Positions 6,973 through 22,877 of a stretch of DNA of 26,237 bases are shown one piece after another; within the stretch, counting starts at the first letter, position 1; the number at the start of each line of letters is the position of its first letter. Location: the IMG/VR virus record IMGVR_UViG_3300042389_000956, positions 1 through 26,237 of that record; one strand, written 5' to 3'. Position numbers and translations under genes: made by a program. The notes under the pieces are model-generated. The model ran no database searches. It was not told the origin of the DNA and was given only the letters and a program-made list of their open reading frames with translations. This DNA is from a virus.

Positions 6973-7691
6973 TGCTAAACATATCAGTTGAAAAACAAAA
7001 CAATTCTCATGTAGACATATCCCCAATGTCTATAAAAAGAGATTGGATGGACGAAACTCCAGAAAAACATGCCTATAGGTGTTTTCCAGTAACCCAAGCA
7101 AACATGGTTGGCTGGAATCTGTATTGCGATGAGGATGTTAAGTTTATTTGGAATGGAACAACTGATACTTCTCCGGAAAATGTTAAAATTTTACAAGGGG
7201 AAGATTTTACATATTCGGGAAGAGGTCAATCTACCGTAAGTTTTATAACTGGACTGGTATTTAGATCAGAAAAAAACATTAGTTTTTTAGTTATTAATCC
7301 AGTCAACTATTTCAATCCTGATTTTGAAACTATGTCTTACTTAGTAAGCACCTCCTGGTATGATAACGACTTTCCATTAGCAATCAGGGTAAAAACTGCT
7401 AATAAAGAAATTACAATAAAGGCGGGGGATCCGATTGCAACAATAATTCCAATATCTTTAACTTCTATTGATAATACAACTATAGAGATGTTTGATTATT
7501 ACGATAAAGACAGCATTCGTTATAACAATAATAAATCTTACGGTGACGCTGCAAGAGGCATAATCGAAAGCGGTAGGTGGACTGATTGGTATAGGGATGC
7601 TGTAAACGAAAAAGGAGAAACTCTTGGCTCTCACGAAACCAAGGCTTTACGTCTTTTTGTAAATAAAAATACAAAAAAGAAAGTGGTATAA
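6972..7691 (+). CDS. DUF6065-like protein, second copy
   Basis: A 239-residue protein. Residues 23-63 (RDWMDETPEKHAYRCFPV, then QANMVGW and FIWNGT) align with the CLPLSIANTYGF...IWDGT segment of the protein at 4696 and fit the DUF6065 pattern. A later beta-rich segment (AIRVKTANKEITIKAGDPIA, about 137-156) parallels the IIPFKRE/FIPIPR region of the other two members. The GVIETD motif has drifted to LVSTSWYDND. There is no visible catalytic motif. It starts on the TGATG stop/start overlap after the first oxygenase and has no Shine-Dalgarno, so it is probably translated by coupling. Its stop codon lies inside the -10 box of the next promoter. Confidence 0.5.
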   Translation: MLNISVEKQNNSHVDISPMSIKRDWMDETPEKHAYRCFPVTQANMVGWNLYCDEDVKFIWNGTTDTSPENVKILQGEDFTYSGRGQSTVSFITGLVFRSEKNISFLVINPVNYFNPDFETMSYLVSTSWYDNDFPLAIRVKTANKEITIKAGDPIATIIPISLTSIDNTTIEMFDYYDKDSIRYNNNKSYGDAARGIIESGRWTDWYRDAVNEKGETLGSHETKALRLFVNKNTKKKVV

Positions 7692-7692
7692 T
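7684..7692 (+). promoter_or_regulatory. Extended -10 promoter, leaderless gene 7699
   Basis: TGG-TATAAT (hexamer 7687-7692). The hexamer contains the TAA stop (7689-7691) of the upstream gene. Six bases follow, then ATG at 7699, so the predicted transcript begins at the start codon. Confidence 0.65.
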
Positions 7693-7698
7693 TTTATT

Positions 7699-8373
7699 AT
7701 GATAGAAATAAGCAATTTAAACCCAAGAAAAGAAATGTCAATAACACCATCTGGGTTTTTTGGCAATGACAAAAGCATGATTGTTGAGCTAGAAAACTTT
7801 ATGACAAAAGATGAAATTGATTTTTTAGAACATGCTGCTAAGTCTATTACAATTTGGGATATTTCAGAAACCCATGTAAATGAAAATGGAACTATTACAT
7901 ACGACTCAGACTATTGGAAAGATAGAGTTGCCAATAGATCATCTTTAGATAAAAATGATCCAAAGATTGGTCCAGTTATTGAAGGACTATTTAAAAGACT
8001 GCAACCAATCATTGAGGACTTTTTTAGTGTTAAGGTAGTCCCTACAGGACAAAGCATTGTTAAATGGCTTCCTGGGCAATTTCAAAATCCTCATGCAGAT
8101 AAAGAACTCCATGAAGGTCCAGATGCTGGACTGCCAAACGATTTTCCACACTATGACTTATCTAGTCTATTTTATTTAAATGATGACTATGAAGGTGGAG
8201 AGCTTTACTTTCCGCTTCAAGATGTTAAGTTTAAACCCAAAAGAGGTGCAGCCTATTTTTTCCCAGGAGATAAAAACTTTATACACGGAGTAACAGAAAT
8301 AAAAAGTGGTTTAAGATTTACTTGTCCATTTTTTTGGGAAATTTTAAAACACACTGGCGAAAGGCAGCCATGA
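7699..8373 (+). CDS. 2-oxoglutarate/Fe(II) oxygenase, leaderless
   Basis: A 224-residue protein. Iron ligands H132 and D134 (NPHADKE) and H196 (FIHGVTEI), with R206 as the 2-oxoglutarate carboxylate binder (SGLRFTC), are all present at the expected spacing. The motif YLNDDYEGGELYF is at 159-171. The N-terminal half (1-115) is a variable helical region starting with a short NPRKEMS segment. There is no Shine-Dalgarno; the ATG lies six bases past a TATAAT box, so initiation is probably leaderless. Its stop overlaps the next ATG (ATGA, 8370-8373), giving translational coupling. Of the six, it is most like the 9900 enzyme in having HxD plus Arg and an FFPGDKNFIHGV-type distal segment. Confidence 0.85.
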   Translation: MIEISNLNPRKEMSITPSGFFGNDKSMIVELENFMTKDEIDFLEHAAKSITIWDISETHVNENGTITYDSDYWKDRVANRSSLDKNDPKIGPVIEGLFKRLQPIIEDFFSVKVVPTGQSIVKWLPGQFQNPHADKELHEGPDAGLPNDFPHYDLSSLFYLNDDYEGGELYFPLQDVKFKPKRGAAYFFPGDKNFIHGVTEIKSGLRFTCPFFWEILKHTGERQP

Positions 8374-11247: not shown

Positions 11248-11873
11248 AATGGAGTTAGCCAGCTCATTAAATTTTTTACATCTTCATAATATTCTGGGGT
11301 TTTGTAGTTACTAAAAGTTCCTGGATTTTTGTCTGCAGGAAGAGAAAATGTAGAAAACGCATATCTGTTACCAGATAATACTTTCTTTACACCATGAAGA
11401 CAATCATCAAGCGCACCATGAATTACAAGATCACCAGGCTCTACTGCAATTTCTATTCCTTGTTTAGGATAATATACTTCTCCACCAGTAAAATCTCCAA
11501 AATAAACAATGGCTCCCCAACTCAATAAGCAACATGTTGCCCAAAGGTCTGGGACGGTCAATGATTCATGATTTCCTTCTCCAGGACTATCACAATGTGG
11601 AAGCATTTCTTTATCTTCTTTAAAATGTAAAAGACTTAGTATTGGGTGTATGACATACTCGGGATAAAGCAGCTCTGAAATGCTTTCCCATACTTCATGT
11701 AGCTCAAAAGTAGCTGGTGTTAGTCCAAATTGAATTTCGTCAAAATAGTGACTAACAGATACCTTTTTAAATATATACTCATTGATTTCATTTACCTTTT
11801 CTCTAGGAATGAAATTTTTATATAAAAATATTTTTTCATCTAGCTTTGTTATATTAGGGTTATCTGTAAACAT
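11196..11873 (-). CDS. 2-oxoglutarate/Fe(II) oxygenase on opposite strand, leaderless
   Basis: A 225-residue protein and the only clear minus-strand gene in the window. Iron ligands are H93 and D95 (LPHCDSPG) and H160 (DCLHGVKKV), with R170 (SGNRYAFS) at the 2-oxoglutarate site. The core motif is diverged (YFGDFTGGEVYYP, 124-136) relative to the YxNDDYEGGE form. About 55 extra residues follow the core and end in LPGTIY. The N-terminus IFLYKNFI resembles that of the 6295 and 10571 enzymes. It has its own promoter with the ATG six bases beyond TATAAT, and no Shine-Dalgarno. Its opposite orientation suggests separate acquisition or independent control. Confidence 0.85.
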   Translation of the reverse strand: MFTDNPNITKLDEKIFLYKNFIPREKVNEINEYIFKKVSVSHYFDEIQFGLTPATFELHEVWESISELLYPEYVIHPILSLLHFKEDKEMLPHCDSPGEGNHESLTVPDLWATCCLLSWGAIVYFGDFTGGEVYYPKQGIEIAVEPGDLVIHGALDDCLHGVKKVLSGNRYAFSTFSLPADKNPGTFSNYKTPEYYEDVKNLMSWLTPLKPNENILKMELPGTIY

Positions 11874-12105: not shown

Positions 12106-14139
12106 ATGTCAGAAAGCGTATTTTCATTTCGTCTATCAGAGGATTTTGTAACAAAATACTCACTAACCCCAGCACCTTTTGGTTTTTCAGATGCAGGGTC
12201 TAACTCTTTGGGGGAAATTACCTTCATTAGGACGTATTCTAGAATGAAAGAAGACGGAACAAAAGAACGCTGGCACGAAGTTTGTCGTCGTGTAATTGAA
12301 GGCATGTATTCGGTTCAAAAAAATCATGCTAAAGATAATCGTTTACCATGGAACGACAATAAGGCACAAAAGTCTGCCCAGGAAGCTTTTCAGAGAATGT
12401 TTGAACTAAAGTGGACACCACCAGGACGTGGACTATGGGCATTTGGAACTCCTATGACTATGGAAAAGCGTAACTCTGCATCCCTTCAAAATTGTGCAAT
12501 GGTATCTACTCGTGATATTGATCGCAATGACCCAGGCGCCCTTTTTGCTTGGGTAATGGATGCTTTAATGTTAGGTATAGGTGTAGGATTCGATACTATT
12601 GGTCAAGATAAAAATATGCCAATTTATGAACCAACAGAACCAGAAAATATTTGGGAAATACCAGATACTCGTGAAGGATGGGTAGATTCAGTTAGAATGC
12701 TATTAAACTCATATCTTCGTCCAAACCAATCTATTCAAAAGTTTAACTATGACCTTATCCGTCCACTAGGAGCACCAATTAAAGGCTTTGGTGGCGTTGC
12801 TAGCGGTCCAGCACCACTTATTGCGCTACATGACAGGATAAATCATGTTATTGGCTCTAGAGCTGGAGAGACGCTTGATTCTAGGGCTATTGTTGATATA
12901 GTTAATCTTATTGGAACCTGTGTTGTTTCAGGAAATGTTCGTAGGTCTGCTACTCTTGCCCTTGGAGCCTCGGGAGATGAAACATTTATTAATCTTAAAA
13001 ATCCAGAAGCATTTCCAGAAAGAAATTCTTATGATTCAGAAAAACCAGGATGGGCTTGGATGAGTAACAACTCTATTGCTGCTGAGGTTGGAACAAAGTA
13101 TGAAGATTATGTAGATTTAATTTCAGATAATGGTGAGCCAGGTTTTATTTGGCTTGATGTAGCTAGAAATTTTGGTCGTCTTGCAGATCCTGCAGATGGA
13201 AAAGATTCTAGAGTTATGGGGTTTAATCCTTGTGCAGAGCAACCGCTAGAGTCATATGAATTATGCACACTTGTAGAAGTGCATTTAAATCGCCATGAAT
13301 CTAAAGAAGACTTTCTTAAGACATTAAAGTTTGCCTACCTATACGGTAAGACTGTAACTCTTCTTCCAACACATTGGCAACAAACAAACGGTATTATGCA
13401 ACGTAACCGCAGAATTGGAACATCTCTTACTGGCATTGCATCATTTGCAGATGAGAATGGACTTCCAGCTGTTCGTGAATGGATGGATGAGGGATATCAA
13501 AAGATTCGTCACTATGACCATGAGTATTCTGAGTGGTTATGTGTTCGTGAATCAATTCGTGTAACAACAGTTAAGCCATCAGGCTCTGTATCACTTCTTT
13601 CTGGTGCTACTCCTGGAGTTCACTGGGGCCCTGGTGGTGAGTTTTACCTTCGTGCTATTCGTTTTGGTAATACAGATCCTATGCTACATTTATTTAAAGC
13701 AGCGGGATATAAAATTGAAGATGATCTAGTCTCAGCAAATACTTCAGTAGTATATTTTCCAATAGCATCAGGACACAAGCGTTCTGAAAAAGAAGTTAGC
13801 TTATTTGAAAAAATTGGTTTAGCAGCAACTGCTCAAAAATACTGGTCAGATAATGGTGTTTCTGTAACACTTTCATTTGATAAACAAGAAGAAACAAAGT
13901 TTATTGCTCCAGCCCTCAATATGTATGAAGGACAGCTAAAGGCAGTCTCATTCCTTCCCATGGGAAATAAGACTTATCCTCAACAACCTTATACCGAAAT
14001 TACTCGTGAAGAATATAATTCTCATGTGGGTAAAATTGGTAAAATTGATTGGTCTGCTATTTATGATGGAGTAGAAAATCTTGAGGCTGAGGGAGAATCT
14101 TATTGCTCTACAGATGCCTGCGAGATTAAATTATATTAA
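12106..14139 (+). CDS. nrdJ: Adenosylcobalamin-dependent ribonucleoside-triphosphate reductase (class II)
   Basis: A 677-residue single-chain enzyme reducing ribonucleotides to deoxyribonucleotides with B12 coenzyme, without oxygen or a second subunit. It resembles the monomeric Lactobacillus-type enzyme (739 residues) and is somewhat shorter. Expected residues are present: C130 (SLQNCAMV) and C387 (ESYELC) as the reducible pair, C376 and E378 (NPCAEQP) as the thiyl-radical Cys and its acid partner, and a C-terminal redox pair C667/C672 (CSTDAC). The phosphate-binding loop KPSGSVSLLSG is at 490-500. GIGVGFDTIG (157-166) and SGNVRRSATLALG (275-287) are further family landmarks. No intein or frameshift is seen. 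It probably feeds phage DNA synthesis. Its position between the oxygenases and the structural genes, with its own promoter, is typical of a phage metabolic cargo gene. Confidence 0.95.
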   Translation: MSESVFSFRLSEDFVTKYSLTPAPFGFSDAGSNSLGEITFIRTYSRMKEDGTKERWHEVCRRVIEGMYSVQKNHAKDNRLPWNDNKAQKSAQEAFQRMFELKWTPPGRGLWAFGTPMTMEKRNSASLQNCAMVSTRDIDRNDPGALFAWVMDALMLGIGVGFDTIGQDKNMPIYEPTEPENIWEIPDTREGWVDSVRMLLNSYLRPNQSIQKFNYDLIRPLGAPIKGFGGVASGPAPLIALHDRINHVIGSRAGETLDSRAIVDIVNLIGTCVVSGNVRRSATLALGASGDETFINLKNPEAFPERNSYDSEKPGWAWMSNNSIAAEVGTKYEDYVDLISDNGEPGFIWLDVARNFGRLADPADGKDSRVMGFNPCAEQPLESYELCTLVEVHLNRHESKEDFLKTLKFAYLYGKTVTLLPTHWQQTNGIMQRNRRIGTSLTGIASFADENGLPAVREWMDEGYQKIRHYDHEYSEWLCVRESIRVTTVKPSGSVSLLSGATPGVHWGPGGEFYLRAIRFGNTDPMLHLFKAAGYKIEDDLVSANTSVVYFPIASGHKRSEKEVSLFEKIGLAATAQKYWSDNGVSVTLSFDKQEETKFIAPALNMYEGQLKAVSFLPMGNKTYPQQPYTEITREEYNSHVGKIGKIDWSAIYDGVENLEAEGESYCSTDACEIKLY

Positions 14140-14148
14140 TCCCCATCC

Positions 14149-14157
14149 TGCTATAAT
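14149..14157 (+). promoter_or_regulatory. Extended -10 promoter, leaderless LamG-like gene
   Basis: TGC-TATAAT (hexamer 14152-14157), nine bases before ATG 14167. There is no Shine-Dalgarno between them. The transcript would carry at most about three leader bases. Confidence 0.6.
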
Positions 14158-14166
14158 AGGGTTATC

Positions 14167-17100
14167 ATGTCTAACCCATCAAATCTTTATGCAGAAAAAA
14201 TATACGCAGAGCATCCCCTGGTGCTTTGGGCATTAGACGACCAATCCGACTATGTTAGTCTTATTTCAGAAAGCCAGCGAGATATAGAAAGTCAATGGTT
14301 TACTACTGGCGGAACAGCAACAGAATCAACCATAGGCTCAGAGCCATTTTTAGATAGCACAACAACGTTATTAGAAGGAAATGTTCCAGTTGGATCTGAA
14401 GGTGAAATAGTTTGCATTAGTCCAGATCTTGTTAATTTTTTAGATTTAAACTCAGAATTTGGAACATTTTCTGTTGGTTTATATTTATATTCAAACAGTG
14501 CATATACTAAATCAATATCAGTTGGGTATGAGTATACAGACACCACTACGTCACTAATTATTCAAAAATTAGAAACTTTTGAAACAACCTTATTTCAAAG
14601 CTGGGGTTTTGTTTCAAAATCTTTTGAAATTCCAAACGAATATACAAATTTACGAATAGTGGTTAAAGTAGGATATTTATCTGGCGGTTCTAATGCAACA
14701 GATTATCAGTTTTATTTAAATGGTATTACTCTGGGCCAATGGTCAGAAGAGTTTAATACAACATCGCTTGGTGTAACCCCACAGGTATTTCCATCTGAAA
14801 TAGCTATAAATACAACAGACAAAGTTGTTCCGGCAGCAGCTTATGGACTTTCTTCAAACCAGGGATATTACATAGTAAATAATAATGCCTTGCTTGCAAG
14901 AAATACTAGCATTCCTTTAGTTTATGGTGCATCTGGAGTTACAAAGTTAATACCAAACACATCACAAAATCCTTCTTTGATAATTCCTGGCAAAGGATTT
15001 TTAAATGAAGTTGGAAGGTATAAAGAGTATACAGTAGAATTTTGGGCAAGAATAAATTCAAACACCGCAGAGCCTAAAAGAATATTTGGACCAATTGCTG
15101 GAGCTAATGGCTTATATGTGGAATCTGGTTTTCTAACTTTAGTTATTGGAAATAGCTTTGCTTCACATTTTGTTGGTGAATGGGTAAGGCCAATGCTTAT
15201 TCAAATTAGAGTAATTAGTAATTCTGCAACGATGATATTAAATGGTGAAGAAGTTGTATCTATTACAATTGATACAGATGGTATGGATTTGCCTTCAGAA
15301 TTTATTAATGGAGATTCACAAGACTGGCTTGGTTTCTATGCTTATGAAGATGTGTCTCCAGTAGAGATAGACTGTGTTGCAATATATTCATATCAAGTTC
15401 CAACTATTGTTGCTAAAAGGAGGTGGGTTTACGGACAAGGGGTTCTTTCTCCCGAAGGTATTAACTCAGCATACGGAGGATCTTCTGCCTTTATAGATTA
15501 TCCGTTTGCAGACTATACATCAAATTACAACTATCCATCTTTTGCACAATGGCAACAGGGATCTTTTGATAATCTCGTTACAACTTCAACATCGCTAACA
15601 ACACCAGAATATTCATTGCCTGAAATTTCTTTAGGATCAAAAACATTAAATAGTTTTTATTTAGATAATCAAGAAATTCAAGATGTTTCTTCGGGTCTTA
15701 CAGTTCCATATAAATTTGTCACGTTTAGACCAAATGAAACCTGGTCTGGACTGGGAACTTATTTTAATTTTCCAAGCTTAAACATTTTAAATAATAGGGT
15801 TAAATCTATATATGGGGTATTTAGTAGTAGCGTTTTGTTAATTGATGGAGGACTATATAACTCTGCTCAAACGTCATTGGCTGACGCAGAATATTACAAT
15901 ACCTTAACTTGGTCAGAAGTATATGATGGCGGTAGTGCACTTGCAGATGGATTTGCTCAAACATTAATAAAAATATACAATCCTTCTACTAATGACTTTT
16001 TTGTTATAAAATTTAATGGAAACATAATTCAATATATCCTAAACTATAATGGAATAGAAGAAACTTTATACACAACAGAAACAGTTGAGTCTGATCAACT
16101 TTTTGCAGTTGGCATTAATATAGATGATTTGACAAATCATTTTGGAGGAAATGTTTCAGCTTTTTTTGGTAATATAAACGGCTTAAAAATTTATGTTGCA
16201 GGGGACGAAGAGTTAGAAAATTCATTTTCTGGCAAAATATACTCTTTAGGATTTGCAACAGACCTTAACCATAAATCAATATCAAATTATTTTAATGAAC
16301 TTGGAATTGTTAAATTTGATGATTTGTCAGAAAGCGGGGCAATAGAAGAAACAAACGCCATTGCTCTTATAGACCACACAGCAAGCTATACGCTTCTACC
16401 AGTTGAGGCATATGATAAATTCTTTTTAGATATTGGTGTTTCTGGATACTGGCAAGACTATTTGCCACTATCATATTTTGCACAATTTGTAGCCAATGAT
16501 GTTGGAAATGAGTTCTATGATCTAGACTTTTTACAATTTAATATTGGATATCCATCACCAGATAAGGTTTTAGAGGTTGAGTCTATTGCAGAAAGCTGGA
16601 CATATTCTGATTTAAAGAATGAATACAAAAACCCAGTTCAAAGAACATATGAGCAGCTAGGAAACATTCTTTACACTGGTTGGTCAGATTATCAAGATAT
16701 GTTAGAAAAATCTGAAAAGTTTTATCAGTATGACACAACCAATGCCTCAATTAGAAGTTATTTAACATTTCAATATATTGATGCGGGAGCAAATGCATTA
16801 CAAGATTCTTTTACTATAAATGAAACACCAAAAAGCAACAAAATAATAGACATGGATGACCATCCAGCATGGGCAAATACTAGATTTGAAATTATCGACA
16901 ACACACTAATATATCCTACAAAATCTGTTGACTTTAATGACTTGGCTGTTGTATTTAATTTGGAATTTAATTTAAGGAACACATTGACAAAGCCAATAAA
17001 GCTTAATAAATTAGAGTTTGCATCTCAAGCATTAAGCGAAAATTCTTTTAATTCAATTGGAACTCGTTTTGGACTTAACCTATTTCCATATAAAAGATCT

Positions 17101-17931: not shown

Positions 17932-18303
17932 ATGGATAATGAAATTCTTAAAAAAGTTGGCAATGTCCGACGCAAAGTAATTGAAAAAGACTACAATTGG
18001 GGTCTTTATGTGTATAAAAAGTCTGATGGAAATTGGTTTACTGATGGAAGTGGTAGTGTTTTAAACATTCCATCAGAGCGTGGAGATATATCAAAAATTT
18101 CAGAGCTAAAAAAGGTAGCCCTTCACTACGGAGATGATGGTGAAGGAAAATGTGTTTTTGTTCCAGGACTCACCAGAATTAGCGAAGAAGAGTATTCAGA
18201 ACAACTAGATAGAATGAAAAGTGGCTTAATCCCATCTATGAATGATCATGGAGCTTGGGTAGCAGCACGACAAACCTATGATAAGTATGGTAGCGATGAG
18301 TAA
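17932..18303 (+). CDS. Small conserved protein upstream of portal, function unknown
   Basis: A 123-residue, soluble, charged protein. Segments are DYNWGLYVYKKSDGNWFTDG (about 20-39), a central VALHYGDDGEGKCVFVPGL, and a C-terminal DHGAWVAARQTYDKYG helix. I recall comparable small proteins next to the portal gene in actinophages but cannot name a function. I place the start at ATG 17932, which fits the leaderless geometry, not the upstream GTG at 17926. Its end overlaps the portal start by eight bases, so the two are translated together. Confidence 0.6.
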   Translation: MDNEILKKVGNVRRKVIEKDYNWGLYVYKKSDGNWFTDGSGSVLNIPSERGDISKISELKKVALHYGDDGEGKCVFVPGLTRISEEEYSEQLDRMKSGLIPSMNDHGAWVAARQTYDKYGSDE

Positions 18304-19894
18304 CGAATATGTAAGTGTTGGACTAAACACTCAAGAAAAAGATGAAAATATTTTTGCTTCTCAAGATCCTTTTAATAAGTCTTGGGAAAACTTAAAAGAC
18401 TATTCTGGACTTGATCAAAATTTTCGTAGAAAAACTGCACGGAATGTAACAAAAGCAATTAACGCTGCAACTAATGCATACTTAGATTCAGCCAATGCAA
18501 CACCTTCGGGCGTAGATGCTTCATCAAAAGCCATTAACCCTGGAACTGTATATCGTAATGGATATGGGTTGTTTGATGTAATTACTCCACCATACAATAT
18601 GTATGAGTTAGCTAACTTTTATGATACCTCTTTTGCTAATCATGCTGCTATTGATGCAAAGGTAGAAAATGTAGTTGGTCTTGGATACTCATTTGAAGTT
18701 GCAGATAAAACAATGCTTAGGTTTGAAATGAATGATGATCAAGCAGCAGTTGACCGAGCTCGTCGTAGAATCGAAAGAATGAAACTTGAACTTAAGGATT
18801 GGGTTGAAAACCTTAATGATGATGACTCATTTACAAAAACAATGGAAAAGTTTTACACAGATGTTCAAGCTACAGGAAATGGATTTTTAGAAATAGGAAG
18901 AACGGTAACTGGAGAAATAGGATACCTTGGCCACATTCCAGCAACCACGGTCCGTGTGCGTCGCCTTCACGATGGATTCGTTCAAATTATTGGAAACTCT
19001 GTAGTTTATTTTAGAAATTTTGGGGCTAAAAATAAAAACCCAATGACAGCTGATGCACGTCCAAACGAAATTATTCACTATAAAGAATATTCTCCACTAA
19101 ACACGTATTATGGAATTCCAGATATTATTGCTGCCTTGCCATCTCTTATTGGAGATCAACTTGCATCACAATATAACATTGACTATTTTGAAAATAAAGC
19201 TGTCCCAAGATATGTTGTAACCCTAAAGGGTGCTAAATTGTCTTCTGATGGAGAAGACAAGATGTTTAGATTCCTACAAACTGGTTTAAAGTCTCAGTCA
19301 CATAGAACTCTATACATCCCTCTTCCTGGGGATACAGATCAAAATAAAGTTGAGTTTAAAATGGAAGCTGTTGAAAATGGCATTCAAGATGGATCTTTTA
19401 AAGAATATCGTAAACAAAATCGTGACGATATTTTTATTGCCCATCAAATGCCTATGTCTAAAATTGGTGGATCTGAAAGCTCTGGTGTTGCAGCAGCTAT
19501 TTCACAAGATAGAACATTTAAAGAGCAGGTTTGTCGTCCAGCTCAAAACCATATTGCTAAGGTAGTGAATAAAATTATTAAAGAAAAAACAGACATTCTT
19601 GAACTTAAGTTTAACGAATTTACTCTTACTGATGAAATTGCCCAATCTCAAATTCTTGAGCGTTATGTAAAAACTCAAGTTATGACTCCAAATGAGGCTC
19701 GAATAAAGCTTGATCTTCCACAAAGAGCAGATGGAGATGAGCCTTTTGTAATGTCATCACGTCAGGCAACTGATGCAGCAGCAAATTTTGCGGGAAACAG
19801 ACAACGCAATTCTGAAAGAACAAATAATAATTCAGACTCTCCTACAACTGTTTCTGGACGAAATGCCCAAGGTGAGGGGAGATCATCTCAATAA
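18296..19894 (+). CDS. Portal protein
   Basis: A 532-residue protein in the HK97-type portal family, which forms the dodecameric ring at the capsid vertex through which DNA enters and leaves. Visible landmarks are ELANFYDTSFANHAAIDAKV, followed by VVGLGYSFE (about 105-135). Then come WVENLN...ATGNGFLEIGRT, PNEIIHYKEYSP...YYGIPDIIAAL and QYNIDYFENKAVPRYVV. EYRKQNRDDIFIAHQMP and GVAAAISQDRTFKEQV follow. The C-terminus is Asn/Ser-rich and disordered. Three in-frame ATGs (18278, 18287, 18296) are possible. I choose 18296 as the shortest overlap with the preceding gene; none has a clear Shine-Dalgarno. No terminase gene is present upstream in this window. Confidence 0.9.
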   Translation: MSNEYVSVGLNTQEKDENIFASQDPFNKSWENLKDYSGLDQNFRRKTARNVTKAINAATNAYLDSANATPSGVDASSKAINPGTVYRNGYGLFDVITPPYNMYELANFYDTSFANHAAIDAKVENVVGLGYSFEVADKTMLRFEMNDDQAAVDRARRRIERMKLELKDWVENLNDDDSFTKTMEKFYTDVQATGNGFLEIGRTVTGEIGYLGHIPATTVRVRRLHDGFVQIIGNSVVYFRNFGAKNKNPMTADARPNEIIHYKEYSPLNTYYGIPDIIAALPSLIGDQLASQYNIDYFENKAVPRYVVTLKGAKLSSDGEDKMFRFLQTGLKSQSHRTLYIPLPGDTDQNKVEFKMEAVENGIQDGSFKEYRKQNRDDIFIAHQMPMSKIGGSESSGVAAAISQDRTFKEQVCRPAQNHIAKVVNKIIKEKTDILELKFNEFTLTDEIAQSQILERYVKTQVMTPNEARIKLDLPQRADGDEPFVMSSRQATDAAANFAGNRQRNSERTNNNSDSPTTVSGRNAQGEGRSSQ

Positions 19895-19916
19895 TTGAGA
19901 TAATGTTTAAAATGTT

Positions 19917-19925
19917 TGGTATAAT
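19917..19925 (+). promoter_or_regulatory. Extended -10 promoter, leaderless protease gene
   Basis: TGG-TATAAT (hexamer 19920-19925), nine bases before ATG 19935. A possible -35 TTGAGA is at 19895-19900 with a 19-base spacer, the best -35 candidate in the window. Confidence 0.65.
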
Positions 19926-19934
19926 AGAAAAGCT

Positions 19935-21257
19935 ATGATTATAAATAAAGCCCATTGGGTAACCGAAGGCGATAACGTTCGCATATCTATGCCTATTGGA
20001 AAGGTTGATATTGAGCGCCGTATGGTGTCAGGTTTTGCTACTCTTGACAATATTGATAAGCAAGGAGATATTGTAACTACAGAGTCTAGCGTAAATGCAT
20101 TTAAAAATTTCCGTGGAAACCTAAGAGAAATGCATCAGCCATCAGCAGTTGGAAAAATAGTTTCATTTAAAGAAGATAGATATTTTGATCCAAATGATAA
20201 AAAGTTTTATAGTGGAGTTTATGTATCTGCATACGTTTCAAAAGGTGCTCAAAATGCCTGGGAAAAGGTATTGGATGGAACATACACAGGGTTTTCAATT
20301 GGGGGAAACATTAAAACTTGGGATGACGCATTTGATAAAGAAATGGATAAAACCATTCGTGTTATTAAAGAGTATGATTTGTTTGAACTATCTCTTGTAG
20401 ATTCTCCAGCAAATCAATTTGCCAACATTGTTTCTATAGAAAAGAAAGATGGCCACAATGTAATTGAGGGAATGCTTTCAAAGATTGAAACAGAAAATAT
20501 TTTTTATGATGCAGAAACAGGATTGGTAATGATTTCAGATTCCGAAACAGCAATGCATCCAATAACACAAAAGCAAATGCAAAATATAGGGTTTGTTGAA
20601 AAAAATGATAATGAAAAAGTAAACATGATAAAGTTCTTAGTTGATAGTGCCAAAGGCATTAGCACAATTAAGATTACAAAGGAGGTTAGTCCTATGACAG
20701 AAGCAGCGCAAGATATCCAAAAAGATAATCACGTTGAAAATGTTGAGGTCGCTCCAGAGGCACAACCAGTAGAAGTTATTAAAACTTCTGCAGTCGTTGA
20801 TGAGGCATTAGTAGCAAAAGCTACAGATGCAGAAAATTCAGTCGATGGTAGTGCAAATTCTTCTATTGAAAAATCAGAAGAGGGAGAAAAGGTTGCAGAT
20901 GTAAATGATGTAACCAAGTCTGATGATGTAATTGTTGAGGCAGTTGCTGACATTAAGAATTCTCTTACAAATGCCTTTGGCGATCTTGCAGCAACAGTAA
21001 AGTCACTACATGACCAAATTGCTGCACTAAGTAAATCTATTGACACTGTATCTAGTGAGGTTAAGGCCGTATCTGGAGAAGTTAACGATGTTAAGGGTGT
21101 CTTTAATGAGTTTGGTAAGCGAGTAGATGCCGTAGAGCAAGATACAGCTTTCCGCAAGTCTGGCGATCTAGGCGAGATCGTGCAGTTTGAACCTGTAAAG
21201 GTTCAGAAATCCCTATGGGGCGGTCGTTTCCTCAAATCAACCGACCTATTTAACTAA
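19935..21257 (+). CDS. Prohead protease with C-terminal scaffold domain
   Basis: A 440-residue protein. Residues 1-170 fit the prohead/XkdF-like serine protease fold. They show SGFATLDNIDKQGDIV, REMHQPSAVGK with probable catalytic H67, a TYTGFSIGG motif with probable nucleophile S121, and DLFELSLVDSPANQ. Residues about 250-440 are acidic, Ala/Val-rich and end in a long coiled coil (DIKNSLTNAF to VDAVEQ). A basic/aromatic tail follows (KSLWGGRFLKSTDLFN). This is the pattern of a protease fused to a scaffold, which shapes the prohead and is then degraded. There is no Shine-Dalgarno; the ATG is nine bases past TATAAT. An internal start at 20694 may release the scaffold alone. Confidence 0.85.
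   Translation: MIINKAHWVTEGDNVRISMPIGKVDIERRMVSGFATLDNIDKQGDIVTTESSVNAFKNFRGNLREMHQPSAVGKIVSFKEDRYFDPNDKKFYSGVYVSAYVSKGAQNAWEKVLDGTYTGFSIGGNIKTWDDAFDKEMDKTIRVIKEYDLFELSLVDSPANQFANIVSIEKKDGHNVIEGMLSKIETENIFYDAETGLVMISDSETAMHPITQKQMQNIGFVEKNDNEKVNMIKFLVDSAKGISTIKITKEVSPMTEAAQDIQKDNHVENVEVAPEAQPVEVIKTSAVVDEALVAKATDAENSVDGSANSSIEKSEEGEKVADVNDVTKSDDVIVEAVADIKNSLTNAFGDLAATVKSLHDQIAALSKSIDTVSSEVKAVSGEVNDVKGVFNEFGKRVDAVEQDTAFRKSGDLGEIVQFEPVKVQKSLWGGRFLKSTDLFN
20694..21257 (+). CDS. Nested scaffold protein from internal in-frame start
   Basis: AAAGGAGGT (20678-20686) lies seven bases before an in-frame ATG at 20694, residue 254 of the protease ORF. It is one of the strongest Shine-Dalgarno sites in the window, while the full-length protein has none. 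The product would be 187 residues (MTEAAQDIQKDN start) containing the acidic linker, coiled coil and KSLWGGRFLK end. Lambda makes its scaffold Nu3 from inside the protease gene in just this way. The internal initiation is inferred from the site; expression is not shown. Confidence 0.6.
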   Translation: MTEAAQDIQKDNHVENVEVAPEAQPVEVIKTSAVVDEALVAKATDAENSVDGSANSSIEKSEEGEKVADVNDVTKSDDVIVEAVADIKNSLTNAFGDLAATVKSLHDQIAALSKSIDTVSSEVKAVSGEVNDVKGVFNEFGKRVDAVEQDTAFRKSGDLGEIVQFEPVKVQKSLWGGRFLKSTDLFN

Positions 21258-21285
21258 GATATACAATCACTAGGAGGTGAACAAT

Positions 21286-22437
21286 ATGTCGGAACAAAAT
21301 AACAATCTAGAAAAAAATTACCCTGGATCAGGCGGAGCAGGCAATGAGATTAACTCTCAAGGCGGTTTCGTATCTGGTGGTGTTGGTAGTGCAACTGGTT
21401 TGGACTCTGCAGCACAGTCTGTAGGATCACAACTCGGTAACACAGCAACTGCAGCATTCGGATCAACATCTGGAGCAAATGCAGTAAACCCAACAGGCGT
21501 GGCTGGTGGTATTCTAGCACCAGAGCAGGCTCGTCGCTTCATCGACTATGTGTGGGATGCAACAGTTCTCGCCAAAGATGGACGTAGAGTTACAATGAGA
21601 GCAAACACAATGGAGATCGAAAAGGTCAACGTTGGAGAGCGTGTAATCCGTGCAGCTGCACAAGGCGCACCAGATTATACAAACATTGGCGCAACATTCT
21701 CAAAGGTTGAACTAACTACCAAAAAGATTCGTCTTGACTGGGAAGTATCAACTGAAGCACTTGAAGACAATATTGAAGGCGGAGCACTTGAAGATCATCT
21801 AGTTCGCTTGATGACAAATGCATTTGCTAACGATATTGAAGATCTTGCTATCAATGGTCTAGGATCAGGCGGAGATGCCTTCCTTTCCATTATGCCTGGA
21901 TTCGTAAAGCAAACTCGTGGAACAGTCGGTAACGACGCACACGAATATGCTGCAACAATTTCAGACAACAACTACACAACATCAGTAATGCAAGGCTTGC
22001 TTTTAGCAATGCCACGCAAGTATCGTGCACTTAAGTCAAACCTTAAGTTTTATGCAGGAACTGATGCATTCGCTGGTATTGTCCGTAACAACGGAACACT
22101 AGCTGACGCAGTTGCAGAAGCATTTGCTAACCGTCCAGGAAGCACTGAAGCAAATCGTCAAGCATTCCTTGATGGTGGTGCACAGACTACTGGCAACTCA
22201 CGCACAACCCGTGTGCTTGGTGTAGATGTTCTTGAGGTTCCTTATTACCCTGCAGGATATGTCGACTTGACATTCCCTCAGAACCGTGTATGGGGCTTCC
22301 AACGTGATATCACAGTAAATCGTGAATATCGTGCAAAGAAGGACACAATCGAATACACAGTATTCGTTCGCTTTGGTATTCAATGGGAAGAGCTAGATGC
22401 AGTCGCTTATGTCGACTCAGATAGTGCTGATTCCTAA
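21286..22437 (+). CDS. Major capsid protein, HK97 type
   Basis: A 383-residue protein that forms the icosahedral shell. The in-frame GTG at 21277 lies inside the Shine-Dalgarno (AGGAGGTGA, 21272-21280), so ATG 21286 is the start. Residues 1-70 are Gly/Ser/Asn-rich, followed by the fold proper. Landmarks are GGILAPEQARRFIDYVWD, the strand-rich E-loop and N-arm region, and WEVSTEALEDNIEGGALEDHL (spine helix). LAMPRKYRALKSNLKFY and VLGVDVLEVPYYP follow, with a C-terminal TVFVRFGIQWEELDAVAY. Codons ending in C are more frequent (GAC, AAC, ATC, CGT) than in neighbouring AT-rich genes, consistent with high expression. A strong terminator follows. Confidence 0.9.
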   Translation: MSEQNNNLEKNYPGSGGAGNEINSQGGFVSGGVGSATGLDSAAQSVGSQLGNTATAAFGSTSGANAVNPTGVAGGILAPEQARRFIDYVWDATVLAKDGRRVTMRANTMEIEKVNVGERVIRAAAQGAPDYTNIGATFSKVELTTKKIRLDWEVSTEALEDNIEGGALEDHLVRLMTNAFANDIEDLAINGLGSGGDAFLSIMPGFVKQTRGTVGNDAHEYAATISDNNYTTSVMQGLLLAMPRKYRALKSNLKFYAGTDAFAGIVRNNGTLADAVAEAFANRPGSTEANRQAFLDGGAQTTGNSRTTRVLGVDVLEVPYYPAGYVDLTFPQNRVWGFQRDITVNREYRAKKDTIEYTVFVRFGIQWEELDAVAYVDSDSADS

Positions 22438-22459
22438 GATTTAACCAATAAATAATAGG

Positions 22460-22494
22460 GCGGGTAGCGTAAAAACTACCCGCTTTATTCTTTT
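22460..22494 (+). terminator. Intrinsic terminator after major capsid gene
   Basis: GCGGGTAG (22460-22467) and CTACCCGC (22476-22483) form an eight-base perfect stem around an eight-base loop, followed by TTTATTCTTTT. It is the only clear rho-independent terminator found. It separates the abundant capsid transcript from a new promoter at 22496. Confidence 0.85.
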
Positions 22495-22495
22495 C

Positions 22496-22504
22496 TGGTA
22501 TAAT
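22496..22504 (+). promoter_or_regulatory. Extended -10 promoter, connector operon
   Basis: TGG-TATAAT (hexamer 22499-22504), two bases after the terminator T-tract. A start near 22511 leaves a short leader with GGAG (22519-22522) before ATG 22527. Confidence 0.6.
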
Positions 22505-22526: not shown

Positions 22527-22877
22527 ATGAATCTAACAATAGAAGAGTTATCAACAAAAACTGTAATGTCTTTAAAATCTTATGCTAAAAAAAATAATAT
22601 AGAATTATTTGAAGCAAATACTAAACTTGAAATTTTAGAAATCTTGGCTAGTTGGATTCCACCAGAGCCAAAAGAAGAAGTAGAAAAAGTAGAAAAAGTA
22701 AAAACTTTGGTTAATAAGGTAGCCCTGTATTCAGAAAGAAACCTACATATGGACAATCTAGGGGCTTTAAAAGTAGGTTACAACATAGTTTCAAAGGAGG
22801 CATCTGAAAAGTGGTTAACACACAGGTTGGTTAGAATTGCACCACCTGAAGAGTTATCCTCATACTACGGTAAATAA
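22527..22877 (+). CDS. Small post-capsid protein, HeH/SAP-like N-terminus
   Basis: A 116-residue protein. Residues about 3-43 (LTIEELSTKTVMSLKSYAKK, then LEILEILASW) look like the short helix-extended-helix/SAP-type module common in small phage head proteins. An acidic/Lys linker (EPKEEVEKVEKVK) follows, then a C-terminal domain with VALYSERNLHMDNLG, VSKEASEKWLTHRLVRIAPPEE and YYG. The C-terminal pattern is one I recall from small proteins following the capsid gene in actinophages. A function in head completion is plausible but not shown. Confidence 0.6.
   Translation: MNLTIEELSTKTVMSLKSYAKKNNIELFEANTKLEILEILASWIPPEPKEEVEKVEKVKTLVNKVALYSERNLHMDNLGALKVGYNIVSKEASEKWLTHRLVRIAPPEELSSYYGK

Follow-up and report, generated by a model that had tools for sequence, protein, structure and literature searches.

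A conserved in-frame Shine-Dalgarno site within a leaderless-type protease gene predicts a nested scaffold protein in a virus contig and its phage relatives

The stretch of DNA analyzed here, referred to as the window, comprises the 26,237 bases of an IMG/VR virus record and has a G+C content of 35.8%. Three head genes follow one another, namely those for the portal (18278-19894), the protease (19935-21257), and the major capsid protein (21286-22437), of which the latter two are read from the plus strand. The capsid gene starts at an ATG and encodes 383 amino acids, and a search on positions 21277-22437 matched phrog_1623 with an E-value of 1.1e-70. The first 73 residues of the capsid protein (21286-21504) are rich in Gly, Ser, and Ala, and the best matches to Streptomyces phage capsids start at residue 74. 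Elsewhere in the window, a class II (B12-dependent) ribonucleotide reductase gene was found at 12106-14139, and a tRNA search of all 26,237 bases identified none.

The protease gene encodes 440 residues and was matched to phrog_9427 (E-value 1.7e-107) and to the Peptidase_S78 family (Pfam accession PF04586), the latter with 25.9 bits and above the curated cut-off of 21. In an alignment of 45 proteins of the window's family, H67 and S121, which we take to be the catalytic pair, were invariant. The fold matches of the N-terminal domain in BFVD were prohead proteases or XkdF. When the full-length model, which has long low-confidence stretches, was compared with PDB folds, no significant match was returned; a PDB sequence search returned only weak coiled-coil matches (best E-value 0.023), and the coiled-coil Pfam models DUF7310 and DUF1664 were matched weakly and below their cut-offs.

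An AlphaFold2 model built on the same alignment had a mean pLDDT of 63.6 and a pTM of 0.37, and it was therefore used for outline only. The model predicted a beta-rich domain up to residue 222, a helix at residues 228-240 that forms the last protease element, a probably disordered stretch at residues 243-329 (pLDDT below 50), and a single long helix at residues 329-409. The head maturation protease domain was accordingly assigned to codons 1-253 (19935-20693), and the remainder to an acidic disordered linker, the long helix, and a C-terminal tail that is highly conserved in the alignment. The predicted helix and the position of the gene beside the capsid gene make this part a candidate scaffolding protein; such proteins are long and helical, reside inside proheads, and are missing from virions. 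An earlier sequence-only reading had placed an internal start at the boundary of the protease and scaffold parts, and the model agrees with this placement, as it puts codon 254 within the linker, some dozen residues beyond the end of its last protease element.

The internal start is composed of AAAGGAGGT at 20678-20686, the spacer TAGTCCT at 20687-20693, and an ATG at 20694, all on the plus strand. The coordinates, the spacing of seven bases, and the reading frame given by the sequence-only reading were correct when read directly from the DNA. This ATG is codon 254 of 440, in frame with the ATG at 19935, and the frame is open to the common stop ending at 21257, such that a nested frame of 187 amino acids (20694-21257) is defined. 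AGGAGG is present in only five copies when both strands of the window are counted, and two of these precede starts, namely the internal site and the copy at 21272-21277 before the major capsid ATG at 21286. Shine-Dalgarno strength was expressed as the duplex energy with the anti-Shine-Dalgarno sequence. With -12.5 kcal/mol, the internal site was the strongest before any of the 1,005 ATGs on both strands of the window, the other 1,004 all being weaker. The capsid start followed at -11.5, and values from +1.5 to -10.2 were obtained for 21 further gene starts. Hence, the two best sites belong to the products expected to be the most abundant, scaffold and capsid. An RNA structure that masks or presents the internal site was not found beyond what shuffled sequences offer (z of 0.02); a weak hairpin in which AGGA pairs with TCCT is possible at the site and could damp it.

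The full-length start has a different make-up. The extended -10 promoter element TGGTATAAT (19917-19925, plus strand) ends nine bases before the ATG at 19935, so that a 5' UTR of some two to three bases is expected, and no Shine-Dalgarno precedes this ATG (duplex energy of -2.8). A leaderless-type start is recognized by a -10 element that precedes the start codon by about 6-10 bases and by a missing Shine-Dalgarno, and both are found here. The proposal that the full-length start is leaderless is thus backed at the level of DNA sequence, and the arrangement is kept in relatives. A start codon and sufficient sequence before it were available in 189 loci. Of these, 151 had an exact TATAAT 4-13 bases before the full-length start, 120 of them at nine bases, and 138 had the extended form TGnTATAAT. 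Because ten spacings were scanned and the best hexamer was kept, weight is given to the exact matches and little to the weak ones. The Streptomyces phages had TATTAT, TAATAT, or weaker hexamers, below consensus and mostly six bases before the start, while the Rhodococcus phages Francesca and NiceHouse had TATACT and TATAAT, respectively, each nine bases before the ATG. Across the representative loci, the median duplex energy was -2.8 at the full-length start versus -12.5 at the best internal site.

Leaderless starts were defined by a 5' UTR of less than 9 nt in Streptomyces coelicolor and made up 21% of the primary starts there (PMC4895711), and in mycobacteria almost one transcript in four is leaderless (PMC4633059). 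The host of the window's virus is probably actinobacterial, judging from the relatives of its sequences; in a contig binned as Actinomycetota, the protease part is 69% identical to that of the window. Further TGnTATAAT elements were found 6-9 bases before the ATGs at 7699 (7684-7699), at 14167 (14149-14167), and on the minus strand at 11873 (11888-11873), which suggests that this phage uses leaderless-type starts more widely. In addition, a perfect inverted repeat (ATCTCAA-TAA-TTGAGAT, 19885-19901) spans the stop codon of the portal gene, some 19 bases 5' of the protease -10 element, and is a possible operator or -35-region element. Of the 189 loci, 108 had TCTCA-N5-TGAGA within 80 bases upstream, 22 had a repeat of the CCACA type, and 59 had neither.

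The protease, scaffold, and capsid frames also appear to be transcribed together. An intrinsic terminator-like hairpin of 14 pairs follows the capsid gene at 22454-22489 on the plus strand, and at the stringency used no other was found in the window. Directly 3' of it, a second copy of TGGTATAAT (22496-22504, plus strand) stands about 22 bases before the next gene start at 22527 and is promoter-like for that gene. These features were compared among the 44 representatives with a complete capsid gene and 120 bases beyond it: a terminator 3' of the capsid gene was found in 39, with differing stem sequences, and TGnTATAAT within 120 bases past the gene in 34, as opposed to 96 and 131, respectively, of 5,600 random 120-base windows drawn from the representatives' loci. 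Upstream of the protease gene, terminators were found in none of 54. With a promoter before it and a terminator after it, the protease-scaffold-capsid block looks like a unit of its own.

A separate scaffold transcript would offer another route to the same protein, as in the herpesviruses, where the UL26.5 scaffold is made from its own transcript. Weak promoter-like matches do occur inside the gene, for example TTGATA-16-CACAAT ending at 20668. Against this origin, such matches were fewer in the region than in shuffled sequences (11 versus a mean of 14.8), and the plus strand between 19926 and 22498 lacks a TATAAT, so no obvious separate scaffold promoter is present. A promoter specific to the scaffold was looked for in the gene region and not found. 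We regard a scaffold mRNA of its own, in place of internal initiation on the protease mRNA, as very unlikely.

The conservation of the internal site had been named as a check on its function, and it was analyzed in a collection of related loci. A first scan of virus contigs provided 79 loci, and further scans and named phages extended the collection to 194, where L001 is the window itself. One of these scans confirmed 598 relatives, of which the best 80 were used. Named phages were sampled from the phage collection at 11 of 127 Streptomyces and four of nine Rhodococcus records, and matches to Brevundimonas and Thermoanaerobacterium phages were left outside the set. Some contigs or phages were fetched twice (e.g., L006/L121, L019/L177, L092/L097, and L093/L098), and 56 representatives, the window included, were obtained through de-replication by shared 12-mers. 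A protease match was found in 193 of the 194 loci, the exception being L078, which starts inside the linker. From these 193 loci, closed genes of at least 900 bases were counted, and open-ended genes were excluded. Also excluded were L150, L017, and L021, where the 5' end is missing; L068, where the frame is broken; and L095 and L096, which are from Vibrio phages and lack a fused scaffold.

An in-frame Shine-Dalgarno with a start codon was found in all 157 complete genes with a fused scaffold and in all 56 de-replicated representatives. A lack of conservation, which the sequence-only reading had listed among the refuting outcomes, was therefore not what the relatives showed. Exactly one such site was present in 153 of the 157 genes and in 55 of the 56 representatives, where the single extra site was at codon 149. 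Out-of-frame sites in the representatives numbered four in frame +1 and none in frame +2. AGGAGG itself preceded the site in 152 of the 157 genes. Carriers were found among virus contigs from freshwater, among phages of Streptomyces and Rhodococcus, and in one phage of Alicyclobacillus. The site fell at codons 241-268 except in the Alicyclobacillus phage, where it was at codon 310 from an upstream-extended start, or 296 from the annotated start. Outside the count of 157, L150, L017, and L021 also carry the site. Among the 79 loci of the first scan, it was kept in all except L068 (3001-3435), where the protease frame is disrupted ahead of the site, at codon 146. Among loci numbered L081 and above, those lacking it were L095, L096, and six that end before the junction (L117, L119, L120, L158, L165, and L184).

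More distant sequences varied. In L203 (3001-4401), a contig binned as a cyanobacterium, the protease is 53% identical and AAGGAGGTAACAAA-ATG occurs at codon 298. The same locus has TGCTACTAT before its full-length start; it is likely a phage contig, and its host is uncertain. In L204-L208, distant homologues encoded on five bacterial contigs, four of them with the label Ktedonobacterales or Chloroflexi, no clear site was present, and the tails look unrelated. A strong internal site was likewise not found in three protease-only Vibrio phages.

Conservation of the site could in principle follow from conservation of the peptide, with the full-length protease-scaffold as the only product and AGGAGG-ATG as a by-product of a conserved Lys-Glu...Met sequence. 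In phage P2, gpO is known only as such a full-length protease-scaffold. Within the freshwater clade, the KE and M residues are indeed conserved, and when synonymous codons were permuted within each gene, an in-frame site reappeared at its original codon in 13.5% of the shuffles on average (21% for the window gene) and anywhere in 25%. Since a site is not rare under synonymous shuffling, any one gene is weak evidence, and the conservation carries the case; since the loci share ancestry, the 56 representatives do not amount to 56 independent events. The wider family argues against a by-product of the peptide, which is not conserved there, while the DNA motif occurs in another codon frame and is followed by GTG starts. 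The motif is read as AAG GAG GTT (K-E-V) in the window and as AAG GAG G in the freshwater group, as GAA GGA GGT (E-G-G) in the Streptomyces Loccivirinae, as AAG GAG GAA in the Alicyclobacillus phage MMB025, and as GAA AGG AGT in L118. The presence of the same nucleotides in different codon frames suggests selection on a ribosome site and not on a peptide. In total, 31 different six-residue contexts were found at the site among the 56 representatives, and the neighboring residues varied already in the first-scan loci (KEV, KED, KEE, and EEE). Moreover, even in the freshwater clade, all 42 representatives have G as the last base of codons 249 and 250, where codon usage predicts about half. In P2 gene O itself, the best internal candidate reaches only -6.3 and is not comparable. 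A full-length product alone is thus considered very unlikely. The strongest synonymous constraint of the gene among the 42 freshwater representatives was located not at the internal site but at the 3' end, at about codons 408-437 (21156-21245), where the third position is richer in G+C.

Internal sequences resembling a Shine-Dalgarno can also cause a translational pause or a frameshift, and the internal AGGAGG might be such a signal instead of a start. This capability is what speaks for it. The representatives speak against it, as every one of them has a start codon 5-11 bases on from the Shine-Dalgarno, with ATG and GTG interchanging (46 ATG, 10 GTG, and one TTG at the 57 sites), and the downstream frame is the same and open, so that no frameshift product is called for. 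A pause or frameshift signal was accordingly judged extremely unlikely.

Initiation at the internal site remains the reading that we favor: as predicted from the sequence and the model, the gene at 19935-21257 very probably makes two co-terminal proteins, a protease-scaffold from the leaderless-type start and a free scaffold from the internal start. The interpretation of the sequence-only reading, in which two modes of initiation in one gene set the ratio of the two forms, is supported by the conservation in relatives. The promoter whose -10 element lies nine bases before the ATG at 19935 would start the mRNA at this ATG or within a few bases of it, and ribosomes would initiate there without a Shine-Dalgarno, yielding the protease-scaffold of 440 residues. 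Further along this mRNA, the Shine-Dalgarno at 20678 would load ribosomes at the ATG at 20694 for the 187-residue free scaffold, the Shine-Dalgarno at 21272 would serve the capsid protein, and transcription would stop at 22454-22489. We infer that both products are made and in what ratio, with the free scaffold in excess over the protease form. Both forms may co-assemble in the prohead through their common C-terminal part, of which the conserved tail would bind the capsid shell, such that many scaffold copies would be incorporated together with a few of the protease; the protease would later cleave the scaffold away. Codon bias was considered as an independent sign of a higher scaffold output. 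It was computed for the 45 representatives whose locus includes the whole capsid gene. The bias towards capsid-gene codons was slightly higher in the scaffold part in 34 of these before correction, and it was nearly gone after control for amino-acid composition (mean z of 0.48, with z above 2 in two of 45), so it was given no weight as support.

As a tentative and rather doubtful extension, the leaderless start and the strong internal Shine-Dalgarno, placed in a unit of their own, may form a conserved dosage device. An mRNA that reads through from the portal side would have no ribosome site for the protease form, which would therefore come only from mRNAs starting exactly here, while scaffold and capsid could be made from any. 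If so, changes in the state of the ribosomes for or against leaderless mRNAs would shift the protease to scaffold ratio and could time maturation.

The free scaffold would add a deeply conserved, unannotated predicted protein to a phage group that includes 136 named Streptomyces and Rhodococcus records and 598 confirmed relatives among virus contigs. A single reading frame would here combine leaderless and Shine-Dalgarno initiation for an evident stoichiometric purpose, which could offer a natural and genetically tractable system for the dosing of protease versus scaffold in capsid assembly, and for the division of actinobacterial ribosomes between leaderless and leadered starts. The internal frame was unannotated in all 14 annotated relatives (nine Streptomyces, four Rhodococcus, and one Alicyclobacillus phage), and a literature search that mostly lay outside subscription journals found no report of an internal start in Streptomyces phages.

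The closest counterparts are the Streptomyces phages of the Stanwilliamsviridae and the Rhodococcus phages Trina, Weasels2, NiceHouse, and Francesca, which have a homologous gene before the capsid gene and the same kind of internal site. The genes of the Streptomyces phages are about 37-42% identical to that of the window; their internal start is often GTG, and in the Loccivirinae it is 9-14 codons further along. The T5-like Vibrio phages pVp-1, Pylo, and D51 also have a related protease domain adjoining the capsid gene; however, their protease is of about 200 residues and carries no fused scaffold, and the strong internal site is missing. Outside this group, the window gene resembles known nested genes in that the scaffold frame shares its reading frame and stop with the protease and has a ribosome-binding site and start at the predicted domain boundary. 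In lambda C/Nu3, the scaffold frame is similarly in frame within the 3' part of the protease gene, with a common stop, between the portal and capsid genes. In contrast to the S78 protease of the window, lambda C is an S49 peptidase, and its full-length start overlaps the portal gene and has a strong Shine-Dalgarno (-11.9), while the internal start, annotated and used here as a positive control, is weaker (-7.4, rank two of 36 candidates). The strengths in the window are reversed, with a leaderless-type full-length start and a strong internal one, and the window gene appears to have its own promoter and terminator. An internal in-frame scaffold start is also found in Mu I/Z and in the Mu-like phages KS10 and PaMx73, which belong to a different phage group. 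The Mu internal site, a second positive control, is likewise weaker (-7.4, rank one of 17), and the full-length start of the Mu type is not described as leaderless in the available part of the source. In-frame nested scaffolds are therefore already known from lambda C/Nu3 and Mu I/Z, and by comparison with them, it is the combination of a leaderless-type full-length start with a strong internal start that appears to be new.
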